A stretch of 45,593 nt of DNA, from contig JASEEX010000012.1 in assembly GCA_030019415.1 (NCBI GenBank), forward strand, positions 1-45,593, in the 5' to 3' direction. The stretch's first letter is position 1. Every line of letters starts with the position of its first letter. The notes under the pieces were generated by a model, which ran no database searches, was not told the origin of the DNA, and saw nothing but the letters and a program-made list of their open reading frames with translations. The translations under genes and the position numbers were made by a program. This document shows positions 3,961 to 40,938 of the stretch, in pieces. Source of the stretch: Thermodesulfovibrionales bacterium (GTDB lineage: Bacteria > Nitrospirota > Thermodesulfovibrionia > Thermodesulfovibrionales > SM23-35).

Positions 3961-3988
3961 TTAAAAGTTAAAAGTTAAAAGTTAAAAG
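3961..3988. repeat. Heptanucleotide tandem array (TTAAAAG)x4
   Basis: Four perfect consecutive copies of TTAAAAG lie in the 98-bp gap between aprB and orf2, inside the sulfate operon. This is one of the dispersed 7-bp-period arrays of this window. Confidence 0.9.
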
Positions 3989-4035
3989 GCTTTCTTTCAC
4001 CCCCTTTCCTCTTAGCTTCTGGTTCTGCTTAGTCC

Positions 4036-4422
4036 TTATGCAGCCTTTTTTTGTAATCCAAGTGCCTCACTAATATCAACATCAGGTATTGGTAATGACT
4101 CCGACTCCTTTGCAGCGAGTTCCTTTATCTTGGGAAGATCTGTAAGGACTGCATCAATTACCTCTGCACCGATAGACTTCATGGTCTTTATCTTTTCAAA
4201 GAGGGCCCTCTTGAAGGCAATGGGTGCTTCCTCTATGAAGAATCGGGCATCCAGCCTCGCACCCGGAAGATTTTCAATTATCTTGCCGGCAAGATTCTCT
4301 GGCACCTCTATAATCAATGCCTTTATCGCCCCTCCAAACATATCAGTTACCTTACTCTCAAGTGGCGACCCCTTAATATCAGAAATCCTTTTTGAATCTA
4401 ATAACACAGCCAAATAGTTCAT
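4036..4422 (-). CDS. Conserved small protein of the sat-apr operon (ORF2-like)
   Basis: This 128-residue soluble protein lies between sat and aprB. A small ORF sits at the same place in the sat-orf2-aprBA operon of Archaeoglobus fulgidus, and the protein is probably its counterpart. Nothing in the sequence suggests a catalytic site: it has no cysteines and no membrane segment, and looks mixed alpha/beta with a Lys/Glu-rich second half ending in GLQKKAA. A strong ribosome site (GGGGTGGAG) precedes the ATG, and the gap to sat is 14 bp. The function is unknown; a role tied to APS handling or to assembly of Sat/AprBA is only inferred from position. Confidence 0.85.
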   Translation of the reverse strand: MNYLAVLLDSKRISDIKGSPLESKVTDMFGGAIKALIIEVPENLAGKIIENLPGARLDARFFIEEAPIAFKRALFEKIKTMKSIGAEVIDAVLTDLPKIKELAAKESESLPIPDVDISEALGLQKKAA

Positions 4423-4436
4423 TCTCCACCCCCTTT

Positions 4437-5813
4437 TTATTTAAATTTAGGAATTTCCATTGGAGGCAGATCTACCTCCAGTTCCTTTTCTCTTTCTGTT
4501 AGATACCTCTTGTTATTGAACGGGTAGCCGAATTCCTTCCACCATTTGAGCACGATCTGGTAGACCTCTCGCCTCATGATAACTGGTGGTGGGAAAACAC
4601 CCTCTGCAAGCAGGCTTCTGATAAAGCTACCACTAAACCTCTGAAGCTCATCTTTATGAGTGCAGTTTTCGCTGTATGTCACCTCTCCGCAGTGAGGGCA
4701 GTACCAGAACTCAGCCATATTCTGAGGCCTCATATACAGTCCCTGAGGCACAGCATAAGGAGGAGCCTCGAAACCAAAGCTTGGAATTCCCTTCTCCCAG
4801 AGGATCTGTGCTGCGTACATATCATAATATGGTCCCAATGCTGCATGGTCTCTTCCGAACATGTGATATGAAACACCCATATTCTGCCTGATAATTCCAT
4901 GTAAAAGTGATTCAATGGGATTACCATACCTCATATCCCATAAACACATGGTTACCAGGTGTCTCTTTGGATTCACATAGCCTGCGAGATTCACCATCTC
5001 ATGAGCTTCAACTATTGCCTCATCTGGATAATCCCCTATCCTCTTAGCACCAATTATGGCATTGACAATTATACCGTCACATGGTTTTATGTCTCCAATG
5101 AAAGCAGCATTCCTCATCAGGGCTTCATGTCCGACATGGGGGACATTTCTTGTCTGGTGGGCAATTACAGTCGTCCATCCCCTCTTTTTGAATTCCTCCC
5201 TTGACTTGGCAGGTGGATACCAGAACCTATCGAAAGGTTTCCTTAGCTTTGGCTCATTTATTATCCTGTATTTTCCAGCTAAGATTATAGGGTTAAACGC
5301 ACTGTAAATGGTAAAACCTGGATGCTTAAAATCAAAGGGAACTTTTACAACCTCTGGATTCGCTTCAGGTGTCCCGAATGTCCTCGTGGCTACCTCACCC
5401 GGGTTGATCTCGTAGACTTCCTCGATATCAAGGATTGCAAAAGGCTGTCCTTTTAGCCTCAAAAGGAGCCTGTCTCCTGAAGTTACACCAAGCTTTTTGT
5501 GATCCTCCTTGCTGATGTCGAAAAGCATCGGGTAAGGGAAGACCCACCCGCTCAAAAGTCTTCTTTTCTCCAATAAACTCTCAAGCTCTGCAGATGTCAT
5601 CGAGCCTTCTACAGGGCTGAAGAAGCCGTAACATATGGACATGATCTCCCTGTAAACATTTCTTACAGGCATGTCCTTGTATAGGGTTGGTTTGATATCA
5701 TAAACAGCAGAACAGCCAGCAGCGAGCTTTTTCCCACGCTCTGGATCTCGAACAACCCTGTCAACCAGATTCCCACCATGGGGCGGTGGAAGTGTTGTCA
5801 TTTTTAGCTCCAT
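4437..5813 (-). CDS. sat: Sulfate adenylyltransferase (ATP sulfurylase)
   Basis: Sat activates sulfate with ATP to give APS and pyrophosphate, the first step of dissimilatory sulfate reduction. The nucleotide-binding signature QTRNVPHVGHE (residues 220-230) and GRDHA (320-324) are intact. A C-terminal metal site of the prokaryotic homo-oligomeric type is visible (YCPHCGE at 371-377, then Cys384 and His386), followed by FSGSFIRSLL. At 458 residues it is at the long end for the family, with an N-terminal extension of roughly 20-30 residues. The ribosome site AAAGGAGGT precedes the ATG. It lies 22 bp downstream of adk and 14 bp upstream of orf2. Confidence 0.97.
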   Translation of the reverse strand: MELKMTTLPPPHGGNLVDRVVRDPERGKKLAAGCSAVYDIKPTLYKDMPVRNVYREIMSICYGFFSPVEGSMTSAELESLLEKRRLLSGWVFPYPMLFDISKEDHKKLGVTSGDRLLLRLKGQPFAILDIEEVYEINPGEVATRTFGTPEANPEVVKVPFDFKHPGFTIYSAFNPIILAGKYRIINEPKLRKPFDRFWYPPAKSREEFKKRGWTTVIAHQTRNVPHVGHEALMRNAAFIGDIKPCDGIIVNAIIGAKRIGDYPDEAIVEAHEMVNLAGYVNPKRHLVTMCLWDMRYGNPIESLLHGIIRQNMGVSYHMFGRDHAALGPYYDMYAAQILWEKGIPSFGFEAPPYAVPQGLYMRPQNMAEFWYCPHCGEVTYSENCTHKDELQRFSGSFIRSLLAEGVFPPPVIMRREVYQIVLKWWKEFGYPFNNKRYLTEREKELEVDLPPMEIPKFK

Positions 5814-5835
5814 TATAACCTCCTTTCTTTAACTT

Positions 5836-6486
5836 TCATGACTTACTTTCAAGAACTGCACAAACATTTTTGAATATTTCATCAATACTGCCTATACCCT
5901 CTACCGATTTCAATATCCTCCTTTCCTTATAGTAGTTGATGAGGGGCGCTGTCTGGGCATCGTAGACATCAAGCCTCCTTCTGATTGTCTCTTCTTTGTC
6001 GTCATCCCTCTGAAAGAGTTCACCACCGCATTTATCGCACACTCCTTCTTTCTTGGGAGGAGAAAAATATATGTTATACATCTGCTGGCAGTTTCTGCAT
6101 GTCCTCCTTCCCGTTAGCCTCTTCATGAGGACATCTCTATCTACATCGACAACCAAAGAAGTATCGAGGGGTGCTCCCATTTCAGTAAGTACCTTATCTA
6201 AGGCCTCTGCCTGTGCCGTGTTCCTCGGAAAGCCATCAAGTATGTAGCCCTTCTTGCAGTCATCTTTGGCAATTCTTTCTTTGACAAGTCCTATTACAAC
6301 GCTATCAGGTACAAGCTCACCCTTGTCCATATAGGACTTAGCTTCTTTTCCGAGAGGTGTGCCCTGTGCGACAGCGGCCCTTAAAATATCTCCTGTAGAA
6401 ATCTGTGGAATGCCGTATTTCTCAATGAGTTTTTTTGCCTGAGTCCCTTTTCCAGCCCCTGGTGCACCGAGAAGGACAAGTCTCAT
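5836..6486 (-). CDS. adk: Adenylate kinase
   Basis: Adk catalyses AMP + ATP to 2 ADP. The P-loop GAPGAGKGTQ (residues 7-16), the DGFPRN segment (about 84-89) and a zinc-binding long LID with Cys130, 133, 150 and 153 are all present. The start is set at ATG 6486, which has an AGAGGGGAG ribosome site and gives the normal 216 residues; the open frame reaches upstream to a TTG at 6516. It is the first gene of the sulfate operon. APS reduction releases one AMP per sulfate, so cotranscription with sat and aprBA makes direct metabolic sense. Confidence 0.95.
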   Translation of the reverse strand: MRLVLLGAPGAGKGTQAKKLIEKYGIPQISTGDILRAAVAQGTPLGKEAKSYMDKGELVPDSVVIGLVKERIAKDDCKKGYILDGFPRNTAQAEALDKVLTEMGAPLDTSLVVDVDRDVLMKRLTGRRTCRNCQQMYNIYFSPPKKEGVCDKCGGELFQRDDDKEETIRRRLDVYDAQTAPLINYYKERRILKSVEGIGSIDEIFKNVCAVLESKS

Positions 6487-6518
6487 ATTCTCCCCTCTAA
6501 AGACTTTCTCGTTCAATT

Positions 6519-6557
6519 AAAAAATATAGAGGGCACCCAGAAAAAAGGTGGTGCCCC
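6519..6557 (-). terminator. Leader hairpin before adk (attenuator or rdgB terminator)
   Basis: On the minus strand GGGCACC (6556-6550) pairs with GGTGCCC (6537-6531) around a T-rich loop, and is followed by TCTATATTTTTT. It has the form of a rho-independent terminator. It lies between the candidate operon promoter (6623-6651) and the adk start, so it could attenuate the operon, or it could simply end rdgB transcription. Confidence 0.5.
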
Positions 6558-6605
6558 AATTACAATACAAAACTGATAGAGGCAACCTTGCGTTGAAAAC
6601 ACAAA

Positions 6606-6622
6606 AGTATAGTCACTATACT
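6606..6622. promoter_or_regulatory. Perfect 17-bp palindrome, candidate operator of the sulfate operon
   Basis: AGTATAGT-C-ACTATACT is a perfect inverted repeat with a single central base. It overlaps the expected transcription start (about -6 to +11) of the candidate promoter at 6623-6651, a classic repressor position. The binding protein is unknown. Confidence 0.45.
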
Positions 6623-6651
6623 ATCTTACTTAAGGTCAAACTTAAGGTCAA
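6623..6651 (-). promoter_or_regulatory. Candidate sigma-70-like promoter of the sulfate operon
   Basis: On the minus strand TTGACC (6651-6646), a 17-bp spacer and TAAGAT (6628-6623) match a housekeeping promoter moderately (5/6 and 4/6). The -35 box lies inside a perfect 12-bp tandem repeat, CTTAAGGTCAAA at 6629-6640 and 6641-6652, which could be a pair of activator half-sites. Confidence 0.4.
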
Positions 6652-6721
6652 ATTCATATTTCTGATAAGTAGATAAAATTTACTTATTAGACTCCTAAAA
6701 ATTACAAATTTATAAATAAAA

Positions 6722-7321
6722 TTATTCAAAAATTTTTATTTCCTCAAGATAACTCCGGAGCTCCCTTAGCGCCTTACCTCTATGACTCAGGGTATCTTTC
6801 TCCTCATCAGTCATCTCGGCAAATGTCCTGCTCTGTCCTTCTGGATAAAATACAGGGTCATAGCCGAAGCCGTTAAATCCCCGCGGCTCTTTACCTATCC
6901 TGCCCTCTACATGTCCGAAAAATGTTTTTACACTCCCGTCTGGAAATGCCAAGGCCATGCAGCACACGAACCTCGCACCCCTTTTCTCATCGTCTATCGA
7001 ATGCATCTCGTACAGCAGCTTTTCGATATTCTTCCTGTCATCTGCGCCCTCACCAGCATACCTCGAAGATAATATGCCCGGGGCTCCGTTCAACGCATAT
7101 ACCTCAAGACCTGAATCATCAGCGAGTGAAGGTTTCCCTACGCATTTTGCGATAGCCATTGCCTTCTTTACAGCATTTGCCTCAAACGTACTCCTGTCTT
7201 CCTCCACCTCGAGACATCCTGGAAAGTTATTGAGCGTTAGTATCGAGATTAATATATCCCCAATGATTCTCTTTATTTCTTCGATTTTCTTCTTATTTCT
7301 CGTTGCAAGAACAATTTCCAT
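6722..7321 (-). CDS. rdgB: XTP/dITP pyrophosphatase (Ham1/RdgB family)
   Basis: This enzyme hydrolyses non-canonical purine triphosphates (ITP, dITP, XTP) to monophosphates and keeps them out of DNA and RNA. The N terminus EIVLATRNKKKIEEI, the SLADDSGLEVYALNGAPGI block (about residues 65-83), the GYDPVF segment (about 153-158) and the SHRGKALREL end are diagnostic. Its 199 residues are normal. It lies upstream of the sulfate operon on the same strand, separated by a 205-bp regulatory gap. Confidence 0.95.
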   Translation of the reverse strand: MEIVLATRNKKKIEEIKRIIGDILISILTLNNFPGCLEVEEDRSTFEANAVKKAMAIAKCVGKPSLADDSGLEVYALNGAPGILSSRYAGEGADDRKNIEKLLYEMHSIDDEKRGARFVCCMALAFPDGSVKTFFGHVEGRIGKEPRGFNGFGYDPVFYPEGQSRTFAEMTDEEKDTLSHRGKALRELRSYLEEIKIFE

Positions 7322-7329
7322 ATTTTAGC

Positions 7330-7401
7330 CTATTGAGTTTATCGGGTTTACCCCGTTAGAAGGCGAAGTCTTCTAACGGGGTTTATCGGGTTTATTGAGT
7401 T
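7330..7401. repeat. Hairpin element with flanking direct repeats
   Basis: A 12-bp perfect stem (CCCCGTTAGAAG at 7351-7362 with CTTCTAACGGGG at 7370-7381) lies between two copies of GTTTATCGGGTTTA (7337-7350 and 7381-7394), themselves near TATTGAGTTT copies. It sits between divergent genes, so it is not an ordinary terminator. Parts recur at the end of mreC (TCTAACGGGGTAAA) and at the start of hom. Confidence 0.7.
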
Positions 7402-7489
7402 TTTATAACACAAGAAACTGTGTAAACACAATAAACTCTGTGAACCGAATTGCTCTTGAAAATTTGGGAATCTTCTGTTAATATTTTGA

Positions 7490-10236: not shown

Positions 10237-10252
10237 AGGCAGAAATAGCGAA

Positions 10253-10273
10253 AGTTGAAAGTGAAAAGTGAAT
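10253..10273. repeat. Heptanucleotide-period repeat at the mrdA start
   Basis: Three imperfect 7-bp units, AGTTGAA, AGTGAAA and AGTGAAT, cover the start of mrdA. An ATGA overlap at 10233 would couple mrdA to mreD, but that frame stops at 10269-10271, inside the repeat. The repeat may therefore have displaced the original start. Confidence 0.6.
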
Positions 10274-12057: not shown

Positions 12058-12058
12058 A

Positions 12059-13180: not shown

Positions 13181-13190
13181 ATAATGATAG

Positions 13191-13328
13191 AATAACCAAA
13201 TTCCAAGCACCAATAATCAAACAATAACCAAATAACTAAATTCCAATAACCAAACTGTTTAGAACTTGGTGCTTGATTATTGAGATTTATTTGGAATTTG
13301 GGATTTGGTTATTGAAAATTGGTTTTTT
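13191..13328. repeat. Long imperfect inverted repeat of 7-8 bp words
   Basis: The left arm (13191-13256) is made of words such as AATAACCAAAT, CAATAATCAA and AATTCCAA. The right arm (about 13264-13315) carries their complements, including TTGATTATTG (13273-13282), TTGGAATTTGG and TTTGGTTATT, in a partly shuffled order. The stretch can fold into a large hairpin in several registers. It shares words with the repeat at 26900-27045 and directly precedes a tRNA gene. Confidence 0.8.
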
Positions 13329-13331
13329 GAT

Positions 13332-13408
13332 GGCGGTGTAGCTCAGGTGGTCAGAGCATGCGGCTCATATCCGCAGTGTCCGGGGTTCAAATCCCTGCAC
13401 CGCCACCA
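13332..13408 (+). tRNA. tRNA with CAT anticodon (elongator Met, or Ile2)
   Basis: A full cloverleaf is visible: acceptor GGCGGTG/CACCGCC, D arm TAGCTCAGGTGGTCAGAGCA, anticodon stem TGCGG/CCGCA with loop CTCATAT (anticodon 13366-13368), T arm with GTTCAAAT, and an encoded CCA at 13406-13408. The paired first base rules out initiator tRNA. Elongator Met is the likeliest; Ile2, whose CAT is modified to lysidine, cannot be excluded by eye. Confidence 0.95.
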
Positions 13409-13413
13409 GGTCA

Positions 13414-13637
13414 TAAATGTCAGAAAAAAACAGCTACGTGATATAGCTCAGAGATTCCTCTCCCTGATAAGAAGCTCTGGCATTCCCATGGAACGAGAGA
13501 GCTTGAGAGTTACCGTTTCTATTGGCGCAACCCTTGCGAAGCCGAGCGACACAGTAAATTCAGTCATAAAAAGGGCTGACCGTCTCATATATAAAAGTAA
13601 AGCTTCAGGGGGAGATTGTATATCAGTGGATAGATGA
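13414..13637 (+). pseudogene. C-terminal fragment of a GGDEF (diguanylate cyclase) domain
   Basis: The open frame directly after the tRNA encodes about 70 residues matching the end of a GGDEF domain: LRVTVSIGATLAKPSDTVNS, then VIKRADRLIYKSKASGGD, and a stop at 13635-13637. The catalytic GGDEF motif and everything before it are missing, and no start codon with a ribosome site is in frame. The fragment begins where the tRNA ends, suggesting a past recombination at the tRNA 3' end that removed the rest of the gene. Confidence 0.8.
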
Positions 13638-14828: not shown

Positions 14829-17800
14829 AGCTTTTTTTTATTTCCTTCGCACCACTCCATCGCATTCTGGAACATCCTTAGCCAGGGAGAGGCATCAAGG
14901 TTTTTCTTCCAATCTTTAGGCATATAGGCCCACTGCCATTTGAGAAATGTCCTTTCTGGATGCGGCATCATTGCTAAGTGTCTACCGTCGGGTGAGCATA
15001 GGGCTGTTATTCCAAAGGGAGAACCATTCGGATTCAATGGATATGTCTCGGTGAATTCTCCATTATCATCGATGAACCTTATAGGTGCCAAATCTCTTTT
15101 TTGCACTTCTTGCATTATTTCCTTTCCGGGGAAATAGACCCTTCCTTCACCATGCGCAATCCATACACCTAAGGTAGAACCTTCCATTCCTCTTAGCATG
15201 ATGGCAGGACTCGGCAGGATGTGGACTGTTGAAAATCTCGATTCAAATCTGCCTGATTTATTATGGATGAATCTTGGTTGAATTCTGTCAGGGATCCCCT
15301 TCCAAGGAACCCAGCCGAGGAGTGCTATAAGCTGACAACCATTACAGACACCGAGACTAAAGGTATCAGGTCTTTCATAGAACCTTTCGAATTGCTCATA
15401 GAGTTTTTTATTAAACCTGATCACCCCTGCCCAGCCCTTTGCTGAATCGAGGACATCTGCATAACTGAATCCTCCCACAAAGGCAATGCCCCTAAAGTCA
15501 TCGAGATTTGCTCTACTCTCAAGAAGGTCTACCATTGTTATATCCCATACCTCAAATCCAGCCTGATAAAAGGCAGAGGTCATCTCACGATCTCCGTTGC
15601 TGCCTTCTTCACGGACGATGGCTACTTTGGGTTTAATATTATTCTCAAGGAATCTCTGGGGTGTCTTCTGTGGATTGAATTTAAGTAAATAAGGAGGCCC
15701 TTTTCTGTCAAAATTTACCTTCCTTTCCTCATTAACACACTCTGGATTTGCCTGGAGCCTGTCGAGGTGATAACTCGTTTCCTCCCAGATATCTCTGAGA
15801 ACCCTCATATCCTCATTCAAGATTAATTCATCGTTGAAACTTATCCTGATTCTTTTTTCTGATAAGCTCCTGCCAATAATCTGATAAGGAACGGAGAAAT
15901 CCTTAAGTACTGAAATTATTTCATCTTCTTTGTCAGGGATGTATTCGATGACCAGTCCGAGTTCCTCTGAAAATAATAAAGAAAGTGCTGGGTGCTGAGT
16001 GTTGAGTGCTGAGTTTTTCTCTCTGACTCCTGACCCCTGACTCCGCCTGAGGCGGATGACTCCTGACACAGCATCATGTTTTATATTTATCTCCAATCCG
16101 CAATTCCCAGAAAAGGCCATCTCAAGGAGCGTTGTTATCAAGCCCCCATCACTCCTGTCATGACCAGAAAGGATCAGATCCTCAGAGATAAGCCTCTGAA
16201 TGGCATTAAAGGTACGTTTAAGAAGTTGAGGGTCATCCAGATCAGGGGATTCATTTCCGATCTGCCCATAAACGTGGGCTAAGGCAGTTCCTCCCATTCT
16301 GTATTTACCTTTGCCGAGGTCGATATAGAACAGTCTGCTTTCACCCGGCCTTTTTATATCGGGTGCGACAACCTTTGTAATATTAGGGCATGTGACATAG
16401 GCAGAAATAACGAGGCTTCCAGGGGCCTTGACTACCTCAGTCTTTCCAGAAAAGGGAACAACAGCAGCCATTGATAGACTATCCTTACCACCATCGATGG
16501 CTATACCGAGTTCAATCATTATATCTCTCAACGCTACAGCAGCATTATAAAGTCTTGCACCTTCACCGGGAAGCTTTGCTGCCCACATCCAGTTCCCTGA
16601 GCATTTAATATCTTCGAGGGCACTCACCTTTGCCCATAGGATATTTGTTAGTGCCTCGCCGACACTCATTCGAGCCATTGCCTGAGGGCTTATCAAGCCC
16701 TTTATTGGTTGTTCACCAATGGCAATAGCTGCTCCTGTTAATACAAAATGGCTCTGGCTGACGACTGATACATTGGATAGGGTAAGCTGAAGAGGTCCAA
16801 CGCATTGCTGTTGAGCAATAAGGCCTGTAACAGACCTGTCCACCTTATTGGTGAGAAATCTCTTTGAGCCGACTGAGACAAGTCGGAGCACCCTTTCGAG
16901 AGCATCTCTTACTTTTATTCCATCTGGCAATTTTAAAGGTTCAAGTTGGGATTTTATTCTTTTAATATTAAAGGTTTTCTGGGGCATCTCACCGAGAACC
17001 TTTGACAATTCAAGATTCACAGGAGTACCTCTATCTATCTCGTCATGAAGCACAATATAACCATCTCCTGTAATTTCTCCTATAATGGAGCATGGAACTT
17101 TCTCCCTTTTACATGTCTCCATGAATATTTTAACCCTGTCAGCCTCTATAAGTAGGGCATCATTTTCCTGATACTCAGCTCCCCATATCTCAAGGACAGA
17201 GAGGGTATCGTCACCAACGAGGATATTTCTCACCTCAATACGTGCACCTTCTGGATATATAATCTCCTTGATCACATTAGAATTCCCTCCAGCACCCTGG
17301 TCATGGATGCTGATGACAGGATTCTCGTCTCCCATCTCTACACATGCTCTGATGACCCTGTTAACCTTCTGCTCCATCTCCGCATCACCGCGTTGCACAG
17401 CATTGAAATCCAGTTCTTCTGTTAGCTCACCAGCTAAAACAGATGAGGCAGCGCCACCCCCTATCCCTATCCTGTATGCAGGACCTCCAATCTTCACTAC
17501 CAGCATACCCCTTTCTGGTTTCCCTTTTTCAATATGCCTGTTATCTATCTGTCCTACACCGCCTGTAAACATTATAGGCTTAACCCATTCTCTCCTTTCA
17601 CCATTCGGCAGTCTCAAACCAAAGGACCTTGTAAAACCTTGTATGACAGGCTCACCAAATTTGTTTCCATAATCAGAGGCACCATTGCTTGCCTCGATCT
17701 CTATCTGAAGAGGTGTTGCCAGGTTCGGTGGATATTCGAAGGATAGGTCTTCCCATGATAGAGGATATCCTGGTATCAGCAGATTACCGACACAATATGC

Positions 17801-18904
17801 AGCAGTACCTGCTATGACTAAGCTTCCTCTGCCTGTTGCATGAACATCTCTTATCCTTCCACCTGTGCCTGTCTCTGCTCCAGGGAAGGGGGCTACACCG
17901 GTCGGAAAATTGTGGGTCTCGGCCGTGAAGATGATATGGTAATTTAGTCTTGCATCCCGAAAGCGGGAGGGTTTGCCTGGATGTTCGGGGATTATGGTCA
18001 ATATCTCATAGCCACGAATGGCACTTGAGTTATCCTTAAACGCAATGACGCTATTGCCTGGGTTATCACTCAAGGGCTGTTTAATTATATCCATTAATGA
18101 ATTTGGCATTTCTTCCCCGTCAATAATCAATCTGCCCTTAAAAAACCAGTGTCTTGAATGTTCGCTGTTTGACTGACCGAGGTCAAAACATTCTACATTT
18201 GTGGGATTACGACCTATATCATTGACAAAAAGGTTGTAATAATAGTCTATGTCCCAGTCATCCAGACCAAGTCCCATATCAGTGTTTATCTTCCTGAGAG
18301 CCTCTTTGCCCTCTTCGATCAATGATACCAGAAAAACGGACTCTGGTTTTATACCTGTCTCAAAGATAGTGAGAGGTTCAGGGTATGGGCATTCTGTCAT
18401 CCGGTCATGAATAAGATTTAAAAAGGCATCAAGGGGTCGAGGATTCAAGGATTCAAGTGATTGATTTTTTTTCACTTGAACCCTCGAATCCTTGAATCCC
18501 TGAACCCTATCTTCGAACATTAGTTTATATCTCCTCGATCGTTCAATTCGGGTAATCTTTGTCAATCCACAGGCATGGCATACCGAGACTGCATTTGTTG
18601 ACCATGCAGTAGTAAAATTCATCCTCGGCCCAACCTCGAAAAGACAGTGACGAGTGACGAGTGACGAGTGACGAGTTAAGAAACTTTCACCAGAAAAGTT
18701 CTCAGGCTCGAAGGTTTCTGCTAAAAGCCATCGAAGCATGTGAAACTCCTCACCTGTGAGTGGAGCAGTGGTCTCGATATTAAAACAGTATTCTGTTTCT
18801 ATATCTCTTATCTCAGATGAGACATTCTGTCTTACAATTGATAAAAGCTCGTTTTTCTTCGCAAAAGAAAGGGCTGGTCTTCGATAAAGATGAAATAGAC
18901 TCAT
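14825..18904 (-). CDS. purL: Phosphoribosylformylglycinamidine synthase, single-chain form
   Basis: This enzyme converts FGAR, glutamine and ATP to FGAM in purine synthesis. The 1359 residues comprise an N-terminal domain, a linker with SNSEHSRHW (about 245-253), synthetase domains with THNFPTGVAPFPGAETGTGG (about 330-349), and a C-terminal glutaminase domain with GVCNGCQ (Cys at about 1188) and MPHPERTF near the end. It is the fused large form, longer than usual by about 60 residues. The excess matches three repeat-derived in-frame inserts, at about residues 75-86, 133-157 and 943-973. Its ATG overlaps the stop of a small upstream ORF (ATGA), suggesting translational coupling. The 3' end meets the cardiolipin synthase gene head-on. 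Confidence 0.96.
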   Translation of the reverse strand: MSLFHLYRRPALSFAKKNELLSIVRQNVSSEIRDIETEYCFNIETTAPLTGEEFHMLRWLLAETFEPENFSGESFLTRHSSLVTRHCLFEVGPRMNFTTAWSTNAVSVCHACGLTKITRIERSRRYKLMFEDRVQGFKDSRVQVKKNQSLESLNPRPLDAFLNLIHDRMTECPYPEPLTIFETGIKPESVFLVSLIEEGKEALRKINTDMGLGLDDWDIDYYYNLFVNDIGRNPTNVECFDLGQSNSEHSRHWFFKGRLIIDGEEMPNSLMDIIKQPLSDNPGNSVIAFKDNSSAIRGYEILTIIPEHPGKPSRFRDARLNYHIIFTAETHNFPTGVAPFPGAETGTGGRIRDVHATGRGSLVIAGTAAYCVGNLLIPGYPLSWEDLSFEYPPNLATPLQIEIEASNGASDYGNKFGEPVIQGFTRSFGLRLPNGERREWVKPIMFTGGVGQIDNRHIEKGKPERGMLVVKIGGPAYRIGIGGGAASSVLAGELTEELDFNAVQRGDAEMEQKVNRVIRACVEMGDENPVISIHDQGAGGNSNVIKEIIYPEGARIEVRNILVGDDTLSVLEIWGAEYQENDALLIEADRVKIFMETCKREKVPCSIIGEITGDGYIVLHDEIDRGTPVNLELSKVLGEMPQKTFNIKRIKSQLEPLKLPDGIKVRDALERVLRLVSVGSKRFLTNKVDRSVTGLIAQQQCVGPLQLTLSNVSVVSQSHFVLTGAAIAIGEQPIKGLISPQAMARMSVGEALTNILWAKVSALEDIKCSGNWMWAAKLPGEGARLYNAAVALRDIMIELGIAIDGGKDSLSMAAVVPFSGKTEVVKAPGSLVISAYVTCPNITKVVAPDIKRPGESRLFYIDLGKGKYRMGGTALAHVYGQIGNESPDLDDPQLLKRTFNAIQRLISEDLILSGHDRSDGGLITTLLEMAFSGNCGLEINIKHDAVSGVIRLRRSQGSGVREKNSALNTQHPALSLLFSEELGLVIEYIPDKEDEIISVLKDFSVPYQIIGRSLSEKRIRISFNDELILNEDMRVLRDIWEETSYHLDRLQANPECVNEERKVNFDRKGPPYLLKFNPQKTPQRFLENNIKPKVAIVREEGSNGDREMTSAFYQAGFEVWDITMVDLLESRANLDDFRGIAFVGGFSYADVLDSAKGWAGVIRFNKKLYEQFERFYERPDTFSLGVCNGCQLIALLGWVPWKGIPDRIQPRFIHNKSGRFESRFSTVHILPSPAIMLRGMEGSTLGVWIAHGEGRVYFPGKEIMQEVQKRDLAPIRFIDDNGEFTETYPLNPNGSPFGITALCSPDGRHLAMMPHPERTFLKWQWAYMPKDWKKNLDASPWLRMFQNAMEWCEGNKKKL
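15985..16076. repeat. In-frame heptamer arrays plus palindrome in purL
   Basis: Four 7-bp units (GTGCTGG, GTGCTGA, GTGTTGA, GTGCTGA at 15985-16012) are followed by three more of another type (CTGACTC, CTGACCC, CTGACTC at 16023-16043) and by the palindrome TCCGCCTGAGGCGGA (16042-16056). Together they encode about 30 extra residues just before the LFSEELG block of PurL. Confidence 0.9.
18431..18507. repeat. In-frame inverted 8-bp arrays in purL
   Basis: GGATTCAA occurs twice in tandem and is followed by GTG; after a T-rich spacer, CACTTGAA and the units TCGAATCC, TTGAATCC, CTGAACCC follow. The second half is close to the reverse complement of the first, so the stretch can form a hairpin. It encodes about 25 residues rich in Lys, Gln, Ser and Val in a linker of PurL. 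Confidence 0.85.
18647..18674. repeat. In-frame heptamer array (GTGACGA)x4 in purL
   Basis: Four perfect 7-bp units encode the near-repeat LTRHSSLVTRH (about residues 76-86 of PurL). In this gene it is the third insert of the same general kind. Confidence 0.95.
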
Positions 18905-26868: not shown

Positions 26869-26899
26869 AAAATCGTCTTTTGACGTTATGTGACTAACT

Positions 26900-27045
26900 A
26901 AAATAACCAATAACCAAATTACAATTACCAAATAATAACCAATCACCAAACCTGTCCTGACGACAGGTCAGGATTCCAATAATCAGTCACTGGTTATTGG
27001 TAATTGGAATTTATTTGGTGTTTGGTTATTGATTATTGATTATGG
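26900..27045. repeat. Long inverted repeat of 7-bp words with a central hairpin
   Basis: The left arm (26900-26950) consists of CA-rich words such as AATAACC and AATTACC. A hairpin CCTGTC-CTGAC-GACAGG with GTCAGG follows (26951-26972). The right arm carries TG-rich complements (TTATTGG, TAATTGG, TGTTTGG, TTATTGA twice). It fills most of the gap before the second thrC and shares words with the repeat at 13191-13328. Confidence 0.85.
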
Positions 27046-27096
27046 GGTCACGTGACAAGAATTCGTCATGAGGCATGAATAATTTTGAGAGATGAT

Positions 27097-29913: not shown

Positions 29914-29930
29914 AGACTGAGGGTCGTTCT

Positions 29931-31339: not shown

Positions 31340-31342
31340 TCC

Positions 31343-32917: not shown

Positions 32918-32942
32918 GGAAAACTGTTACAATTAGTAGTCA

Positions 32943-32970
32943 CTTTTAATTTTTAATTTTTGATTTTTGA
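32943..32970. repeat. Heptanucleotide array (CTTTTAA, TTTTTAA, TTTTTGA, TTTTTGA)
   Basis: Four 7-bp units lie in the 73-bp gap between cimA and the EF-G-like gene, just before its GAGGGGG ribosome site. Confidence 0.85.
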
Positions 32971-32990
32971 TTTCAAATGAGGGGGTATCT

Positions 32991-35093: not shown

Positions 35094-37981
35094 GTATCCT
35101 GTCAAAGGACTATAAAAACACCCTTAATCTTCCCCAGACAGACTTTCCGATGAAGGCAAATCTTTCCCAGAGAGAGCCAGAGATACTTAAGTTCTGGGAG
35201 GAGAGAAAGATATACGACAGGATCCAGGAAAAGAATCAAGGCAAAACTCCTTATATCCTGCATGACGGGCCTCCCTATGCAAATGAACGCATCCACATTG
35301 GACATGCATTAAACAAGATACTCAAGGACATAATTGTCAAATACAAATCAATGAAGGGCTTTTATTCTCCGTTCGTTCCCGGCTGGGACTGCCACGGCCT
35401 TCCAATAGAACATCAGGTTGACAAAAAACTCGAACTCGAAGGCATAAAAGACAAGGTAGATATTCTTGAAAAGAGAAAGCACTGTAAGGATTATGCGGAA
35501 ACATTCGTGGATATACAGAAACATGACTTCTGGAGGCTCGGGGTTTTTGGTGACTGGAAAATTCCTTATCTAACAATGTCCTCCAGATATGTAGCATACA
35601 TAGTTAGGGAGTTTACCCATTTTGTGAAAGAGGGATATGTTTATAGAAAGAGAAAGCCTGTACACTGGTGCCCTTCCTGTGTCACCGCCCTTGCAGAGGC
35701 AGAGGTGGAGTATGCTGATAAGGAATCACCCTCGATCTATGTGAAGTTCAGGGTTGAAAGTATTCCTGAAGGAAAAGAAATTTTGTTTGACGAGTTTCCC
35801 AGGATCGAACATTATTTTGTTGCATGGACGACCACACCATGGACGCTTGTAGCCAATCTGGCTTTGTGTTTACATCCTGCATATTCTTACCATTTAGTAA
35901 AGGTAAATATTGGGCAGGGTAGATATGAGATCTACATCATTGTAGGAAAACTCTTGGATGTTTGCATGAAAGAGTTTGGTTTCAAGTCCTGCAGGGATAA
36001 GGATGTACCTGATGTTGGAGAATATCAAGTTATTGCTACCTGGGGGGGCGAAATTCTTGAAGGAATAATGTGCAAACATCCGTTTATTGATAGGAAATCA
36101 AAAGTAATCCTTGGTGACTTTGTTACTGTTGGCGAGGGAACTGGTATTGTGCATATCGCACCGGGTCACGGAGAAGACGACTACGAGATTGGACTTAAGT
36201 ATGGCCTTGATATCTATGCGCCCGTTGACGATAGAGGAAGATTCACAAAAGAGGCAGGGGAACTTGAAGGCCAATTCGTATTTAAGGCAAATGCGAAAAT
36301 AATAGAGATTTTGAAAAATAAGAATTCCTTGATAAAAGAAGAGAGGTTTATCCATTCTTATCCCCATTGCTGGAGATGCAAGAAGCCTGTTATTTTCCGC
36401 GCAACAGAGCAGTGGTTCATCTCGATCGAGCATAACGGTCTGCGGAAACGTTGTCTCGAAGAGATTGACAGAGTAAACTGGATTCCCCGCTGGGGAAGGG
36501 ACAGGATTTATGGTATGGTCTTAAACAGACCTGACTGGTGCATATCGAGACAGAGGGCATGGGGAGTTCCAATAACACTGATAAAATGCGATAGCTGTAG
36601 TGGATTTATTAAGGAAGAGGAAGTGTTCGAAGGGATTATAAAATCTTTTGAAGAAAAGGATGCTGATATATGGTTTATAAAAAGTGTAGATGAGTTTTTA
36701 CCTTCAGGGTATAAGTGTAAAAAGTGTGGAGGTAATTCATTTTCAAAGGAGATGGATATACTTGATGTCTGGTTTGATTCAGGTATAAGCCATGCTGCTG
36801 TCATAGGTATAGATAAAAGGCTTAACTGGCCTGCTGATATATATCTTGAAGGGAGTGACCAGCACAGGGGATGGTTCCAGAGCTCGCTGCTAACAGCTGT
36901 AGGGACAAAAGGTAAAGCTCCTTACAAGACTGTACTCACACACGGCTTTGTTGTTGATGGCCAGGGTAAAAAGATGTCCAAATCTCTCGGAAATGTCGTA
37001 GCACCACAGGAGGTCATAAAGTCGGATGGTGCAGAGATACTGAGATTATGGGTTTCGGCCAAGGATTATAGAGATGACATAAGGATATCTAAAGAGATCC
37101 TCGAGAGGCTTACAGAGGCATACAGGAAGATAAGGAATACCTGCAGGTTTCTGCTTGGTAACCTTTACGATTTTGATTATAGGGATTATAGCTATGCCCT
37201 TTTAGAGATAGACTCAAAGATAGACAGATGGGCAATGAGCAGGCTCCAGACACTTATAGAAACGGTTACCTCAGCATATGAGAATTTTAACTTTCATGAG
37301 GTCTTTCATGCCCTCTACAATTTCTGCGTTGTTGACATGAGCTCCTTTTATCTCGATGTCTTGAAAGACAGGCTCTATACATTTAAACCGGGCTCTATGG
37401 AAAGGCGTGTTACCCAATGGGTCCTTTACCAGATACTCTCAACAATGACACGATTAATGGCGCCAGTACTTTCATTCACCGCAGAAGAGGTCTGGCAGAA
37501 TATAAAGCAAAGAGCAAAGAGCAAAGAGCAAAGAGAAGAAGACATAGAAGATTCGGTTTTTCTTGCCTCATTCCCGGAGGTTGATGAAAAGTATTATGAC
37601 CAGGAGCTTGAAAAAAAGTGGGATGATCTATTTGTACTGAGAAGTGAGGTGAATAAGGCACTCGAGATTAAAAGGGCGGAGAAGTTCCTGGGGAATTCCC
37701 TCGAGGCAAAGGTAATACTCTATCCACCGGAGAGATATAATGCCCTCCTTTCAGAATACAGAGATTTCTTACCAGCATTTTTTATTGTCTCAGCAGTAGA
37801 GATTACAGATCAAAGTCCTGATGCCTCCTATAAAAGCAGAGAGATAGAGGGGTTTGAGGTTAAGGTAGAGAAGGCATCAGGGGCAAAATGTCAGAGGTGC
37901 TGGAATTGGAGCGAGAGTGTTGGTAGATTTAAAGAGGCACCCGAAATCTGCGAGAGGTGTTATGAGGTTATCTCTGGATAA
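35090..37981 (+). CDS. ileS: Isoleucyl-tRNA synthetase
   Basis: IleS charges tRNA-Ile. The 963-residue product has the HIGH motif in GPPYANERIHIGHALNK (about residues 58-74), the editing domain (TTPWTL at about 247-252), KMSKSLGN (about 627-634) and a C-terminal zinc site CQRCWNW / CERCYE (about 933-958). The GTG start overlaps the upstream stop. Residues 806-815 (KQRAKSKEQR) come from a (GCAAAGA)x4 array in a variable linker of the anticodon-binding domain. lspA follows directly, a common ileS-lspA arrangement. Confidence 0.98.
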   Translation: MSILSKDYKNTLNLPQTDFPMKANLSQREPEILKFWEERKIYDRIQEKNQGKTPYILHDGPPYANERIHIGHALNKILKDIIVKYKSMKGFYSPFVPGWDCHGLPIEHQVDKKLELEGIKDKVDILEKRKHCKDYAETFVDIQKHDFWRLGVFGDWKIPYLTMSSRYVAYIVREFTHFVKEGYVYRKRKPVHWCPSCVTALAEAEVEYADKESPSIYVKFRVESIPEGKEILFDEFPRIEHYFVAWTTTPWTLVANLALCLHPAYSYHLVKVNIGQGRYEIYIIVGKLLDVCMKEFGFKSCRDKDVPDVGEYQVIATWGGEILEGIMCKHPFIDRKSKVILGDFVTVGEGTGIVHIAPGHGEDDYEIGLKYGLDIYAPVDDRGRFTKEAGELEGQFVFKANAKIIEILKNKNSLIKEERFIHSYPHCWRCKKPVIFRATEQWFISIEHNGLRKRCLEEIDRVNWIPRWGRDRIYGMVLNRPDWCISRQRAWGVPITLIKCDSCSGFIKEEEVFEGIIKSFEEKDADIWFIKSVDEFLPSGYKCKKCGGNSFSKEMDILDVWFDSGISHAAVIGIDKRLNWPADIYLEGSDQHRGWFQSSLLTAVGTKGKAPYKTVLTHGFVVDGQGKKMSKSLGNVVAPQEVIKSDGAEILRLWVSAKDYRDDIRISKEILERLTEAYRKIRNTCRFLLGNLYDFDYRDYSYALLEIDSKIDRWAMSRLQTLIETVTSAYENFNFHEVFHALYNFCVVDMSSFYLDVLKDRLYTFKPGSMERRVTQWVLYQILSTMTRLMAPVLSFTAEEVWQNIKQRAKSKEQREEDIEDSVFLASFPEVDEKYYDQELEKKWDDLFVLRSEVNKALEIKRAEKFLGNSLEAKVILYPPERYNALLSEYRDFLPAFFIVSAVEITDQSPDASYKSREIEGFEVKVEKASGAKCQRCWNWSESVGRFKEAPEICERCYEVISG
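37507..37534. repeat. In-frame heptamer array (GCAAAGA)x4 in ileS
   Basis: Four perfect 7-bp units encode the Lys/Gln/Arg-rich linker of IleS. The same unit (CAAAGAG in another register) and its variant CAGAGAG make up the array in tsaD. Confidence 0.95.
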
Positions 37982-37984
37982 ATA

Positions 37985-38437
37985 ATGAGACGGTTCAGAA
38001 ATGTATCCCTTATCTCGTCATTTGTAATAGCAATAGACCAAGTAACAAAGTATCTTGTTGTCAGCTATATAAATCCCTTTGATTCTATAAAGATCTTCCC
38101 TTTCCTGCATTTAGTAAGTGTCAGGAATACGGGTGCTGCATTCGGGATGCTTGAGAATGTGGGCAGTGGTTTTTTTATAACGGTATCGGTAATCGCCATA
38201 GTCTTTGTGGTATGGCTTCTGATCAAAGATAAAAGGGATTATCTCGGCCTTTCCCTCATACTCGGTGGTGCAACAGGCAACCTCATAGACAGGATATTTC
38301 TCGGGCAGGTTGTGGATTTCATAGACATCTCGATAGGGAGATTTCACTGGCCAGCATTTAATGTGGCCGACTCTTCCCTTACAGTCGGTATCATGATTGT
38401 CCTCTTAACCCCTCTTTTAAAGAAGAGGCACCTCTGA
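37985..38437 (+). CDS. lspA: Lipoprotein signal peptidase
   Basis: LspA cleaves the signal peptide of diacylated prolipoproteins in the inner membrane. The 150-residue product has four membrane segments and the family motifs: DQVTKYLV (about residues 19-26), VRNTGAAFG (about 46-54), GNLIDR (about 99-104) and FNVADSSL with the second catalytic Asp (about 125-132). It lies between ileS and lgt; Lgt performs the preceding step on the same substrates. Confidence 0.97.
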   Translation: MRRFRNVSLISSFVIAIDQVTKYLVVSYINPFDSIKIFPFLHLVSVRNTGAAFGMLENVGSGFFITVSVIAIVFVVWLLIKDKRDYLGLSLILGGATGNLIDRIFLGQVVDFIDISIGRFHWPAFNVADSSLTVGIMIVLLTPLLKKRHL

Positions 38438-38439
38438 CG

Positions 38440-39228
38440 ATGCACCCTGTATTATTCAAGATTGGCCCTTTGACAATACACACCTACGGAGTCCTTGTGG
38501 CTTCTGGTTTTCTCCTCGGCCTCGGCCTCGCTGTCAGGCGGGCGAGGAAAGAGGGCATCCCATCAGATAAGATAGTGGACCTCGGCTTCTATATTCTCCT
38601 GTCAGCTATCATAGGTTCAAGGCTATTCTTCATTTTAATGAACGCCGGCTACTATCTTAAAAATCCCCTGGAGATATTAAAGATATGGGAAGGTGGTCTC
38701 GTCTTTTATGGAGGCCTTATATTGGCCATTCCAACAGCTGTCTGGTATGTAAAAAAAAATACCCTGGGCGTCTGGAATACAGCAGATTTGTTTGCCCCTT
38801 CAATAGCGATTGGTCATGCTATGGGAAGGATCGGGTGTTTTTTTGCTGGCTGCTGCTATGGGAAGCCATCAGAAGGGCTTCCATGGGCGGTTACATTCAC
38901 CGACTCCCAATCCCTCGCCATGACAGGAGTCCCACTGCATCCGACACAACTTTATGAGTCCATGGGTGAGTTCATTAGTTTTCTCTTACTCGTAATCTTA
39001 AGAAAATACAAGTCCTTTAATGGCCAACTTTTCCTGACATATATACTCCTTTATTCTGTCCTGAGGTTTATAGTTGAATTCTACAGAGGTGATGTGGATA
39101 GAGGGTTTATTACATCTCAACTCTCTCTGGCCCAGGGAATCAGTATACTGATGTTTTTGGTTGCGGTAGCGGGACTTGTTATTTTAAGACAAAGAAAAGT
39201 CCGCCTCAGGCGAAAAGGTAAGACTTAG
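38440..39228 (+). CDS. lgt: Prolipoprotein diacylglyceryl transferase
   Basis: Lgt moves diacylglycerol from phosphatidylglycerol to the lipobox cysteine of prolipoproteins. The polytopic 262-residue product has the signature around AMGRIGCFFAGCCYGKPS (about residues 127-144), the GGLVFYGG block (about 86-93) and HPTQLYES (about 167-174). The last residues (KVRLRRKGKT) are encoded by TCCGCCTCAGGCG (39200-39212), a palindrome shared with purL and the lysC leader. It starts 2 bp after lspA and ends 14 bp from convergent tsaD. Confidence 0.97.
   Translation: MHPVLFKIGPLTIHTYGVLVASGFLLGLGLAVRRARKEGIPSDKIVDLGFYILLSAIIGSRLFFILMNAGYYLKNPLEILKIWEGGLVFYGGLILAIPTAVWYVKKNTLGVWNTADLFAPSIAIGHAMGRIGCFFAGCCYGKPSEGLPWAVTFTDSQSLAMTGVPLHPTQLYESMGEFISFLLLVILRKYKSFNGQLFLTYILLYSVLRFIVEFYRGDVDRGFITSQLSLAQGISILMFLVAVAGLVILRQRKVRLRRKGKT
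39200..39212. repeat. TCCGCCTNAGGCGGA-type palindrome in lgt
   Basis: TCCGCCTCAGGCG lies in the last codons of lgt. Related copies lie at 16042-16056 (purL) and 29987-30003 (before lysC), and a half copy (CGCCTGAGG) lies just before thrC near 24988. Confidence 0.65.
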
Positions 39229-39242
39229 GATTTATCCTCTCT

Positions 39243-40277
39243 TTAGAGTGGCATGTATGCCTTTGGATTTAAATCAAGCCCGACGGTATCTCCTGCCTCA
39301 AGATGGTAATATCCTGCTGATGCAATCATGGCTGCGTTGTCAGTGCAAAAAGATGCAGAAGGTGTGAAGATTTCTACTTCTCTTTCGTCTCCCATCTCTT
39401 TCATCCTTCTCCTTAGCTCTCTGTTTGCAGCCACCCCGCCTGTGAGGACAACCCGTTTAATGCCCTCTTTTTTGATTGCCCATTCTGTTTTCCTTACAAG
39501 GACATCGATTATAGAAGCTTGGAAGGAAGCGGCTATATCGTTTACTCTCTGCTCTCTGCTCTCTGCTCTTTGCTCTTTCACGAAATTCAGTACTGCTGTT
39601 TTCAGTCCGCTGAAGCTGAAATCAAAGGACTCTGGCAGGTATGCCCTCGGGAAGTCTATTGCCTTGGGATTTCCATCTTGTGCGATTTTCTCGATTATCG
39701 GGCCACCAGGGTATCCGAGGCCAAGGAGCTTTGAGACCTTATCATATGCCTCACCTGCTGCATCATCCCTCGTCCTGCCAAGCTCCCTGTATTTACCAAA
39801 ATCGTCAACTCTGTAAAGGCATGTATGTCCTCCCGATACAATGAGGGCAAGGAATGGAAAGGATGGAGTGCGTGGGGGAAACTCTGTTTCCCCCACGGGC
39901 CCCCTTTCACTTAAAAAGCAGGAGAATATGTGACCCTCGAGATGGTTCACTGCAACGAGGGGAATTCCTTTTGAATAGCATAAGGCCTTTGCAAAAGAGC
40001 AGCCTACAAGGAGAGAGCCTATCAGGCCAGGACCATGACATGCAGCAACACCGGAAAGATCCTCAAGTTTAATATTGGCAGCCTTTAATGCCTCATCAAC
40101 AACAGGCCATATCATCTCTATATGCCGGCGGGATGCAAGTTCAGGGACAATACCACCGTATTTTTTGTGTACCTCTGTCTGGTTTGAGACAATGTTGGAT
40201 AGGACCTTTGTTCCATTCTCGACGACAGCTGCTGTTGTGTCATCACAGGAGGTATCAATCCCTAAGATTAGGCTCAT
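39243..40277 (-). CDS. tsaD: tRNA N6-adenosine threonylcarbamoyltransferase
   Basis: TsaD adds the threonylcarbamoyl group of t6A37 to ANN-reading tRNAs. The 344-residue product has the ASKHA fold with GIDTSCDDTTAAVVENG (about residues 6-22), VNHLEGHIF metal-site histidines (about 107-115), LIVSGGHTCLY (about 143-153) and the C-terminal GGVAANRELRRRM. Two inserts are visible: residues about 127-135 from a perfect 12-bp hairpin (39871-39897), and about 233-244 from a heptamer array (39545-39579). Its start overlaps the end of lolA by 23 bp. Confidence 0.97.
   Translation of the reverse strand: MSLILGIDTSCDDTTAAVVENGTKVLSNIVSNQTEVHKKYGGIVPELASRRHIEMIWPVVDEALKAANIKLEDLSGVAACHGPGLIGSLLVGCSFAKALCYSKGIPLVAVNHLEGHIFSCFLSERGPVGETEFPPRTPSFPFLALIVSGGHTCLYRVDDFGKYRELGRTRDDAAGEAYDKVSKLLGLGYPGGPIIEKIAQDGNPKAIDFPRAYLPESFDFSFSGLKTAVLNFVKEQRAESREQRVNDIAASFQASIIDVLVRKTEWAIKKEGIKRVVLTGGVAANRELRRRMKEMGDEREVEIFTPSASFCTDNAAMIASAGYYHLEAGDTVGLDLNPKAYMPL
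39545..39579. repeat. In-frame heptamer array (CTCTCTG)x3 plus CTCTTTG, CTCTTTC in tsaD
   Basis: Five 7-bp units encode KEQRAESREQR in TsaD. On the coding strand the units read CAGAGAG and CAAAGAG, the same family as the ileS array 2 kb away. Confidence 0.95.
39871..39897. repeat. In-frame perfect hairpin in tsaD
   Basis: CGTGGGGGAAAC (39871-39882) pairs over 12 bp with GTTTCCCCCACG (39886-39897) around a 3-base loop. It encodes about ten residues (GPVGETEFPP) in a surface-loop position before the ALIVSGGHT block. No T-run follows and it is inside a gene, so it is not a normal terminator. Confidence 0.9.
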
Positions 40278-40938
40278 ATATAGTTACGCCCTTTGGTAAG
40301 GAAGGCTCAAACAATCCGTCTTCCAACCCTGTATTAATCTTCACATCCTTCAGCGTTATCTCTATTCTGTTTGAATAAGAATCGTTTACGGTGAACGAAC
40401 CTATTGGGAATTCGCCCTCAGAAGGTTCGATCTCTATAGAGAGTATCCCTCCCATTGAAGTTTTTGGTTTCAGGAGAAGACTTCCGTTCTTTCCAGATAC
40501 AAAGAACTCTTCCTGAATTCTTCCAAATCCACTCAGAAGGGCTATCGGTGCCCGGCCATAGGTATTCCTGCCAAATTTTCCCCTGAATGCCTGCCTTTCC
40601 TTTTTCTGATATATTATGATCTCATCACTATTAATAAGAACCTCCTGGGCTACTTCTCCCTTATACTCCCACCTCATCTTCATCGGCCTCTTTATGAAGA
40701 ATTGACCTTTATATGTATCAATGCGCTTAAGGTCCTTAATATGGCTCTTCTGAATAAAGCTACCCCTTATGTCTTTAATGTTCTCATATGCCTTTTGAAT
40801 CCTTGCAATGTCCTCCTCAACGGATGAGGCAGCAATAGAAACAGTGAAAAGTGAACAGTGAAAAGTGAACAGTGAAAAAACCCAAACTATTAAAGGCAGA
40901 AGATTACTTTTTAGCCGCTTGCTAATTATCTTTTTCAT
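40255..40938 (-). CDS. lolA: LolA-like outer-membrane lipoprotein carrier protein
   Basis: LolA-like proteins carry lipoproteins across the periplasm. The 227-residue product has an N-terminal signal peptide (about residues 1-37, Lys-rich then hydrophobic, ending SIAAS) and the LolA fold with IRGSFIQKSHIKDL (about 57-70), KRPMKMRWEY (about 83-92) and repeated beta strands. Part of the hydrophobic core of the signal peptide (about residues 21-32, FSLFTFHCSLFT) is encoded by a 7-bp-period array. It overlaps tsaD. A lipoprotein role agrees with lspA and lgt nearby. Confidence 0.88.
   Translation of the reverse strand: MKKIISKRLKSNLLPLIVWVFSLFTFHCSLFTVSIAASSVEEDIARIQKAYENIKDIRGSFIQKSHIKDLKRIDTYKGQFFIKRPMKMRWEYKGEVAQEVLINSDEIIIYQKKERQAFRGKFGRNTYGRAPIALLSGFGRIQEEFFVSGKNGSLLLKPKTSMGGILSIEIEPSEGEFPIGSFTVNDSYSNRIEITLKDVKINTGLEDGLFEPSLPKGVTIYEPNLRD
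40842..40876. repeat. In-frame heptamer array (CAGTGAA/AAGTGAA alternating) in lolA
   Basis: The units CAGTGAA, AAGTGAA, CAGTGAA, AAGTGAA and CAGTGAA follow in tandem. On the minus strand they encode part of the LolA signal peptide. Confidence 0.95.

Follow-up and report, generated by a model that had tools for sequence, protein, structure and literature searches.

Heptanucleotides form the most abundant class of long simple sequence repeats in most genomes, and a slippage hypothesis based on polymerase contacts has been put forward for them (Mrazek 2007, via PMC4679880 and PMC4692102; our statements on published systems follow excerpts of the sources). Since at least 2007 it has been an open question why seven-base units predominate among longer simple repeats in bacteria (PMC4679880). 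Described cases with period 7 include the TAACTGA direct repeats of Beggiatoaceae (PMC4679880) and the GGGAATC repeats of Xanthomonas, in which the majority of arrays consist of four units and inverted pairs occur (PMC4692102). The tandem repeats of archaeal Borgs are genic and intergenic, recently formed, independent and frame-keeping, with a unit length divisible by three inside open reading frames (ORFs) (PMC9879509). Here we analyse tandem 7-bp arrays in a 45,593-bp contig of a Thermodesulfovibrionales bacterium (JASEEX010000012.1, hereafter the window) and in the genome to which it belongs (the own genome), a fragmented metagenome-assembled genome (MAG) of the Nitrospirota with 1.94 Mb in 166 contigs.

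The seven-base period in the window and the genome

An exact lag-7 run was scored at 11 or more consecutive matches, and 20 order-3 Markov shuffles of the window served as control. The window holds seven such runs in six arrays against 0.1 expected, and every other lag from 2 to 30 gave 0 or 1 run; two of the seven overlap at 32944-32973 and the run at 27026 belongs to a foldback element. A 246,915-bp sample of the own genome, picked without regard to arrays, contains 22 runs at lag 7 (0 in the shuffle), 0-2 at lags 3-6 and 8-13, and 15 and 5 at the multiples 14 and 21. A larger sample of 889,962 bp, which takes in the window and ten stretches selected for matching purL arrays, gave 81 runs at lag 7 and 1, 1, 7, 1 and 3 at lags 5, 6, 8, 9 and 10. 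When mismatches were permitted, 490,758 bp yielded a set of 87 lag-7 arrays (0 in the shuffle), 64 of them imperfect, and 1, 1, 6, 0, 0, 4 and 1 at lags 5, 6, 8, 9, 10, 11 and 13. Seven is thus the dominant period among 5-11 in this genome (81 versus at most 7; 4 at lag 11 versus 87), and its tandem 7-bp units exceed the length expected by chance from shuffle comparison. Relatives were scanned over 1.83 Mb at thresholds adjusted to each period; lag 7 gave 104 and the runner-up, lag 8, gave 18. The period-7 observation is therefore confirmed: the process making or keeping 7-bp periodicity that a sequence-only reading of the window had suggested is real and genome-wide, with period 7 far commoner than other periods, and is seen in part of the phylum.

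The arrays and related elements of the window are as follows.

3961-3988: TTAAAAG, 4.0 copies, intergenic between an aprB-like gene (3491-3937) and an ORF at 4036-4422
10258-10272: weak AAAGTGA pair of 2.1 copies at the start of a penicillin-binding-protein-2-like ORF, not separable from chance alone
13185-13335: long foldback element of degenerate heptads, adjoining tRNA-Met (13332-13408)
15984-16014, minus strand: imperfect AGTGCTG array of 4.4 copies in purL
16023-16044, minus strand: CTGACTC array of 3.1 copies in purL, running into the CCGCCTGAGGCGG palindrome (16031-16067)
18429-18508, minus strand: inverted pair of 8-bp arrays (TCAAGGAT and CTTGAACC) in purL
18646-18676, minus strand: perfect AGTGACG array of 4.4 copies in purL, sense ACTCGTC, peptide TRHSSLVTRH
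26890-27055: long foldback element of degenerate heptads (AATAACC and TTATTGA)
32944-32973: TTTTAAT/TTTTGAT, 4.3 copies, at the start of the elongation factor G ORF
37506-37535, plus strand: perfect AGCAAAG array of 4.3 copies in ileS, peptide KQRAKSKEQRE
39545-39578, minus strand: CTCTCTG array of 4.6 copies in tsaD, peptide KEQRAESREQR
40838-40878, minus strand: 14-bp/7-bp array AACAGTGAAAAGTG in a LolA-family gene, coding for an N-terminal hydrophobic stretch

Tandem Repeats Finder recovers the dispersed 7-bp arrays at 3961, 15984, 16023, 18646, 32944, 37506, 39545 and 40838, and bears out an 8-bp version near 18431, which it finds at 18429 and 18475; it reports weaker arrays besides. An array proposed at 10253 proved weak, with only 2.1 copies and 8 matches, and is absent from that output. 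Six arrays had been said to lie in frame in coding sequence, and they do sit in intact ORFs of purL, ileS, tsaD and the LolA-family gene. Compared with the best solved structures, the proteins of the window are longer at the array by 10 residues in IleS and by 4 in TsaD. The elongation factor G ORF is listed from a TTG at 32967, and its family match starts at residue 9. An Rfam scan of the window returned tRNA only, and a search of a plasmid collection with purL gave no match.

Inverted arrays had also been noted at 13191 and 26900. They are present but of another kind, namely members of a dispersed foldback family with shared sequence, found for the window copies at 13185-13335 and 26890-27055 in 22 and 28 places of the 890 kb (own copy included). 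The claim that no single sequence had spread is therefore not fully supported: the heptad units do differ, but they have a common ACT/AGT core and some unit types recur, as described below, and these two elements are copies from one family. The CCGCCTGAGGCGG palindrome in purL resembles 6 further places in the sampled own genome. A separate period-8 repeat type with the unit AGGATTCA/TGAATCCT recurs at 18429-18508 of the window, at L131:8557 and at L233:18615. Some own arrays alternate two heptads to give period 14 (window 40840, L141:4841, L149:5699), as if unit pairs were copied jointly.

Unit core, position in genes and spread in the phylum

ACT/AGT occurs in 56 of the 87 units, compared with 17.5% of random 7-mers. 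Coding is not the cause of this core, because 14 of 20 units in non-genic arrays also have it. Alignment of the 87 units by rotation and strand gave the core [A/G][C/A]T, with T at 97%, and a score of 3.78 per unit versus 2.48-2.76 in 15 sets of random genomic 7-mers; when all trinucleotides were compared at lag 7, the largest excess fell on ACT/AGT (572 versus 209). Five ACT in a row at spacing 7 occur 41 times in the 890 kb; spacings 4-6 and 8-12 give no case. Of 103 perfect arrays from the own genome and its relatives, 56 have the ACT core; the share is lower in relatives' arrays (45/96). Exact lag-7 runs of the 246,915-bp sample comprise 35 unit types. Among perfect arrays, 11 unit types are common to own genome and relatives, where random 7-mers gave a mean of 2.9 and a maximum of 9 in 300 draws.

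Within ORFs lie 67 of the 87 own arrays, a share that is approximate as the permissive ORF caller behind it marks 90% of the sequence as coding (a conservative caller, used with the 889,962-bp lag counts, marks 66%). Genes are depleted in arrays but not free of them, given a density of 151 per Mb in coding sequence versus 426 per Mb elsewhere. Recurring array peptides include SSLVTRHSS, NSELRTQNSE and RAKSKEQ, and the frame is likely kept through selection. On the sense strand the 67 genic arrays show ACT in 22, AGT in 20 and neither in 25; a sense-strand RNA element was rejected on account of this near equality of ACT and AGT. Arrays begin within the first 45 codons in 13 of 57 genic cases versus 7.9 expected (binomial 0.046). 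Signal-peptide-like N-termini made of heptad arrays were observed at L125:7090-7179 of the own genome, and also at L125:5120-5189, L130:5674, L132:10580 and at 40838-40878 of the window; at L125, a Lys-rich KLKVKSLKFKV and a hydrophobic SLLTSHFSLLT are encoded by two adjacent arrays of roughly opposite sense.

Array length was measured in long ORFs (200 aa or more) of own and related loci, which hold 101 arrays with runs of at least 14. A perfect span of at least 25 bp was found in 80 of the 101, of which 56 measure 28-34 bp (a range picked after the data were seen) and 6 lie above that range, the longest at no more than 39 bp; the peak for perfect genic arrays is at 31-34 bp. Writing the span as 28 + m, m reaches 3 or more in 46 of the 56, a share that chance extension would put at about 5%. 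Strictly intergenic arrays number only 7, too few for a length comparison with genic ones, and the spans found at other periods were likewise too sparse to compare.

Among Nitrospirota genomes, 82 of 198 have at least one match to the spacing-7 ACT pattern, ranging from 0 to 140 matches per genome when overlapping matches within one array are counted separately. Large contrasts occur within genera: in g30, G131 has 0 and G199 has 37, and g89 spans 0 to 77. Sampled sequence gave 12 lag-7 arrays in 84 kb of G127, 6 in 74 kb of G175 and 0 in 42,111 bp of G199; in 74 kb of G130, lag 7 gave 6, lag 9 gave 5 and lag 6 gave 2. The ACT pattern at spacing 8, searched in 22 genomes whose choice for high spacing-7 counts favours spacing 7, had 74 matches in 8 genomes versus 1131 at spacing 7 in the same 22. 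Of the spacing-8 matches, 33 (29+4) are in G061, and the 12 in G054 are a plain ACTG repeat. On several contigs of G061, period-8 ACT-core arrays (ACTCATTG types) stand alongside period-7 arrays. The reversed pattern, TCA at spacing 7, is often well above zero, but, since it too has period 7, it cannot serve as a control for period. G171 appears to have another core, with 63+98 TCA matches at spacing 7 versus 0+4 for ACT. TCA matches at spacing 8 are high in G135 (22+56), G035 (31+21) and G061 (24+28), and period 8 with other cores is therefore also present in the phylum. In all these pattern counts, overlapping matches within one array are included.

Orthologous sites and the origin of the arrays

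Relatives of PurL that carry names are mostly Nitrospirota MAGs, several of them labelled Thermodesulfovibrionales or Thermodesulfovibrionia; the top match has 77% identity in its best segment, and the nearest relative genome 80%. Relatives do not have the same residues at the array sites, and at the same PurL and IleS loops they have other units or none. The PurL loop (residues 76-86) was compared across 84 sequences with identical anchors, which are included in the lengths. In L026 and L039 it measures 22 aa; the window, L044, L045, L046, L047 and L103 have 29 aa, with differing units (ACTCGTC, ACGCATC, AACTCTC, AGCTATC) that have decayed in L047. The L045 loop has the two units of L026 as its outer units, with three more between them. 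A lag-7 run of at least 12 is present in 24 of 89 PurL genes, compared with 0, 1, 6, 0, 0 and 0 genes at lags 5, 6, 8, 9, 10 and 11, and a tree of the 89 genes implies at least 16 changes of array state, though it is a quick tree with 26 weak forks. In IleS, readable at 25 of 30 loci, L198 and L200 have a loop of 12 aa, the window and L223 one of 19 aa. Other units occupy the loop in L210 (run of 18) and L217 (run of 13), and weaker ones (8) in L199 and L202; L199 and L217 have a palindrome there as well. REP-like palindromes, with peptides such as NPPxPPFxKGGxGG, were also observed as in-frame inserts at loop positions that hold heptad arrays in other relatives; examples are PurL of L040, L041, L042, L067 and others, and the orthologues of L130:6975 in G001 and G012.

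Seventeen arrays on three operon stretches were compared with six family members, giving 64 comparisons placed at 15 sites and 12 locus alignments that could not be placed; length differences between arrays are seen between genera, by assembly comparison. Together with the PurL and IleS loops, exact 21-bp differences occur at five sites, the other three being L149:4225, L130:11586 and L141:7514. At L149:4225, G001, G010 and G014 differ by -21 without an array, G003 by +3 without a clear array, and G012 and G013 by 0 with an array, that of G013 being of another unit. The differences are -21, -24, -24, -27, -9 and 0 at L130:11586; -21, -36, -45, -9, 0 and +33 at L141:7514; -42, -15 and +18 at L141:5136; and -39, -12, +21 and 0 at L149:5348, where the 0 is an identical G012. 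L130:7408 has equal length in five genomes (own, G001, G003, G012, G014), and L141:7458, at -21 in a first comparison, was not placed in the recount. Many arrays are perfect and lineage-specific, and some are shared across genera.

We tentatively favour, at somewhat under even probability, a slippage-like process that adds heptads, with selection keeping frame-preserving products in tolerant loops. What the data show directly is the seven-base period, a bias in the units, a characteristic array size, repeated appearance and replacement of arrays in given loops, and differences of 21 bp at some sites. The process would be a heptad-biased tandem duplication resembling replication slippage with a seven-base ruler: a growing strand or repair intermediate may re-anneal seven bases off on a short microhomology, often the ACT/AGT core, so that the same seven bases are copied again and the step is repeated. 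Between genes any number of units would survive, and within genes only products that keep the frame, the smallest such gain being three heptads, or 21 bp. A seed of 7 + m bases that gains three heptads would therefore give an array of 28 + m, which fits the 31-34 bp peak. Variable loops, linkers and signal peptides would be the places where such inserts last, until they decay by point mutation or are replaced. The spread of mismatches in imperfect arrays, with the core T (47/421) like the other positions (A 24/436, C 22/433; all positions 0.04-0.14), fits neutral decay; retention of the core by selection within arrays was looked for here and not seen.

Several observations weigh against slippage as the whole account. 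The loop of L083 carries an array at 27 aa, and that of L054 reaches 29 aa without one. The 64 comparisons include 0 fourteen times, -21 five times (three at one site) and -36 five times (four at L141:4841), the remainder being +21 three times and other values one to three times each; where a near-perfect own array faces a relative without an array, -21 was found in 4 of 18. A protein-level survey of insertions and deletions has no clear spike at 7 residues (31, versus 28 at 6 and 21 at 8). A difference of 21 bp recurs at some sites and is not a general rule. Nor does plain slippage predict the ACT core in 56 of 87 units, or that unit types should recur across genomes and between loci that are otherwise unrelated; on both counts, mobile arrays or a dedicated activity stay candidates.

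Small mobile elements are one such alternative: a ready-made array of about 31-34 bp, or one arm of a foldback, would be inserted whole at permissive sites, much as Rickettsia palindromic elements insert inside genes. The recurrence of unit types across loci and genomes points this way, as do the related long foldback elements dispersed in the own genome, the palindromic inserts in the same linkers of relatives and the many with/without differences other than 21 bp. An inverted partner within 120 bp (score of at least 13) accompanies 11 of 87 arrays versus 1 of 87 random stretches; the other 76, however, have none, and so are not the hairpin-forming palindromes of REP/RAYT elements. At L149:5338-5391 and its G012 orthologue, 54 bp (the array with 10-bp flanks) are identical in the two genera amid wider flanks of 77-82% identity, for which recent transfer, conversion or strong constraint are the options. 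Insertion of whole arrays is harder to reconcile with 35 unit types among exact runs and with the five sites where the difference, at 21 bp, is shorter than the array. A RAYT/Y1 transposase was rejected as mobiliser: none of the seven own Y1_Tnp loci (2.1-3.3 kb) bears an array, and the array-rich genomes G147 (no Y1_Tnp match) and G054 are outside the 141 of 198 matching genomes. On balance we consider mobile elements unlikely. Selected binding sites, for a protein that might bind ACT-type heptads chromosome-wide, would account for the common core and spacing; the protein might for example be of the ribbon-helix-helix type, which reads 7-bp heptads in plasmid pSM19035. ACT-core perfect arrays start at the A (17/56) and end at the T (23/56) more often than the 8 expected, and in matches from other genomes ACT stays constant with variation at the remaining four bases, though the search pattern itself required ACT. 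Such sites would nevertheless have to tolerate strong unit divergence between loci, a location mostly in ORFs, no preferred sense and unrelated units or palindromes at orthologous positions; changes at the core T are about as frequent as elsewhere in the unit, which speaks against selection for binding. On the whole we find this explanation quite improbable.

The repeats might instead be written by a dedicated generator present in some lineages, for example an error-prone polymerase or a reverse transcriptase of the telomerase type. The patchy matches inside genera (g30, g89) would suit it, yet the 42,111 bp of G199 have no lag-7 array, and each of the two enzymes searched for is absent from some of the array-rich genomes. 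A reverse transcriptase (RVT_1), searched in 22 chosen genomes, had no match in the own genome, G127, G054, G130, G147 and G203; a Y-family polymerase had none in G127 (the richest genome), G147, G192, G203 and G186, and G054 is not among its 135 matching genomes. We regard such a generator as improbable. A broader proposal, speculative and rather doubtful in our judgement, is that part of the Nitrospirota has a dedicated repeat-writing activity which reads ACT/AGT, steps by seven (by eight in a few lineages, such as G061) and needs neither RAYT nor a Y-family polymerase nor a reverse transcriptase. It might feed in-frame peptides, signal peptides included, into essential proteins, and might also underlie heptanucleotide repeats elsewhere (TAACTGA in Beggiatoaceae; GTGATTA in H. 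pylori, with ACT on the complement). Chance or assembly artefact, which the fragmentation of the own MAG might suggest, is scarcely credible: shuffles yield almost no arrays, and orthologous arrays occur in independent assemblies, including an IleS array (run of 18) in the one-contig genome G029.

Comparison with known heptad and in-gene repeats

With slippage and a frame filter as the tentative account, the arrays make an evolutionary filter visible: units of seven, a length not divisible by three, get into essential genes and the frame stays intact. They also suggest a route by which linkers and signal peptides can arise from scratch. As matches vary from 0 to 140 per genome with large contrasts inside genera, comparative genomics should be able to trace the cause. 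We found no earlier account of heptameric repeats in Nitrospirae/Nitrospirota among the matches listed from the open-access literature searched, which does not establish their absence from print. The heptanucleotide excess was already known; the genic, ACT-core form in Nitrospirota looks new.

The arrays share the dominance of period 7 with the long heptanucleotide repeats, as these are described in the excerpts cited above, and differ in lying mostly in ORFs, in their ACT core and in standing, at some sites, 21 bp from empty orthologues. TAACTGA is a rotation of ACTGATA and so has the ACT core. The excerpts on TAACTGA and GGGAATC deal with one unit type each, mostly or notably intergenic (PMC4679880, PMC4692102), whereas many units, mostly genic, are present here; in place of one heptamer mostly just upstream of start codons, as for TAACTGA, we find 35 unit types and 67 of 87 arrays in ORFs.

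Inserts are tolerated inside proteins here as they are for Rickettsia palindromic and REP/RAYT elements, but our arrays repeat directly, in most cases with no partner to form a hairpin, and a genome can be array-rich yet have no Y1 transposase match. The Borg repeats, as far as the excerpt describes them, are alike in lying in and between genes with the frame kept (PMC9879509). They differ in that the unit inside ORFs is here seven, not divisible by three, so that the frame is kept through the number of units, and in that our arrays lie on chromosomal MAG contigs and many are imperfect.

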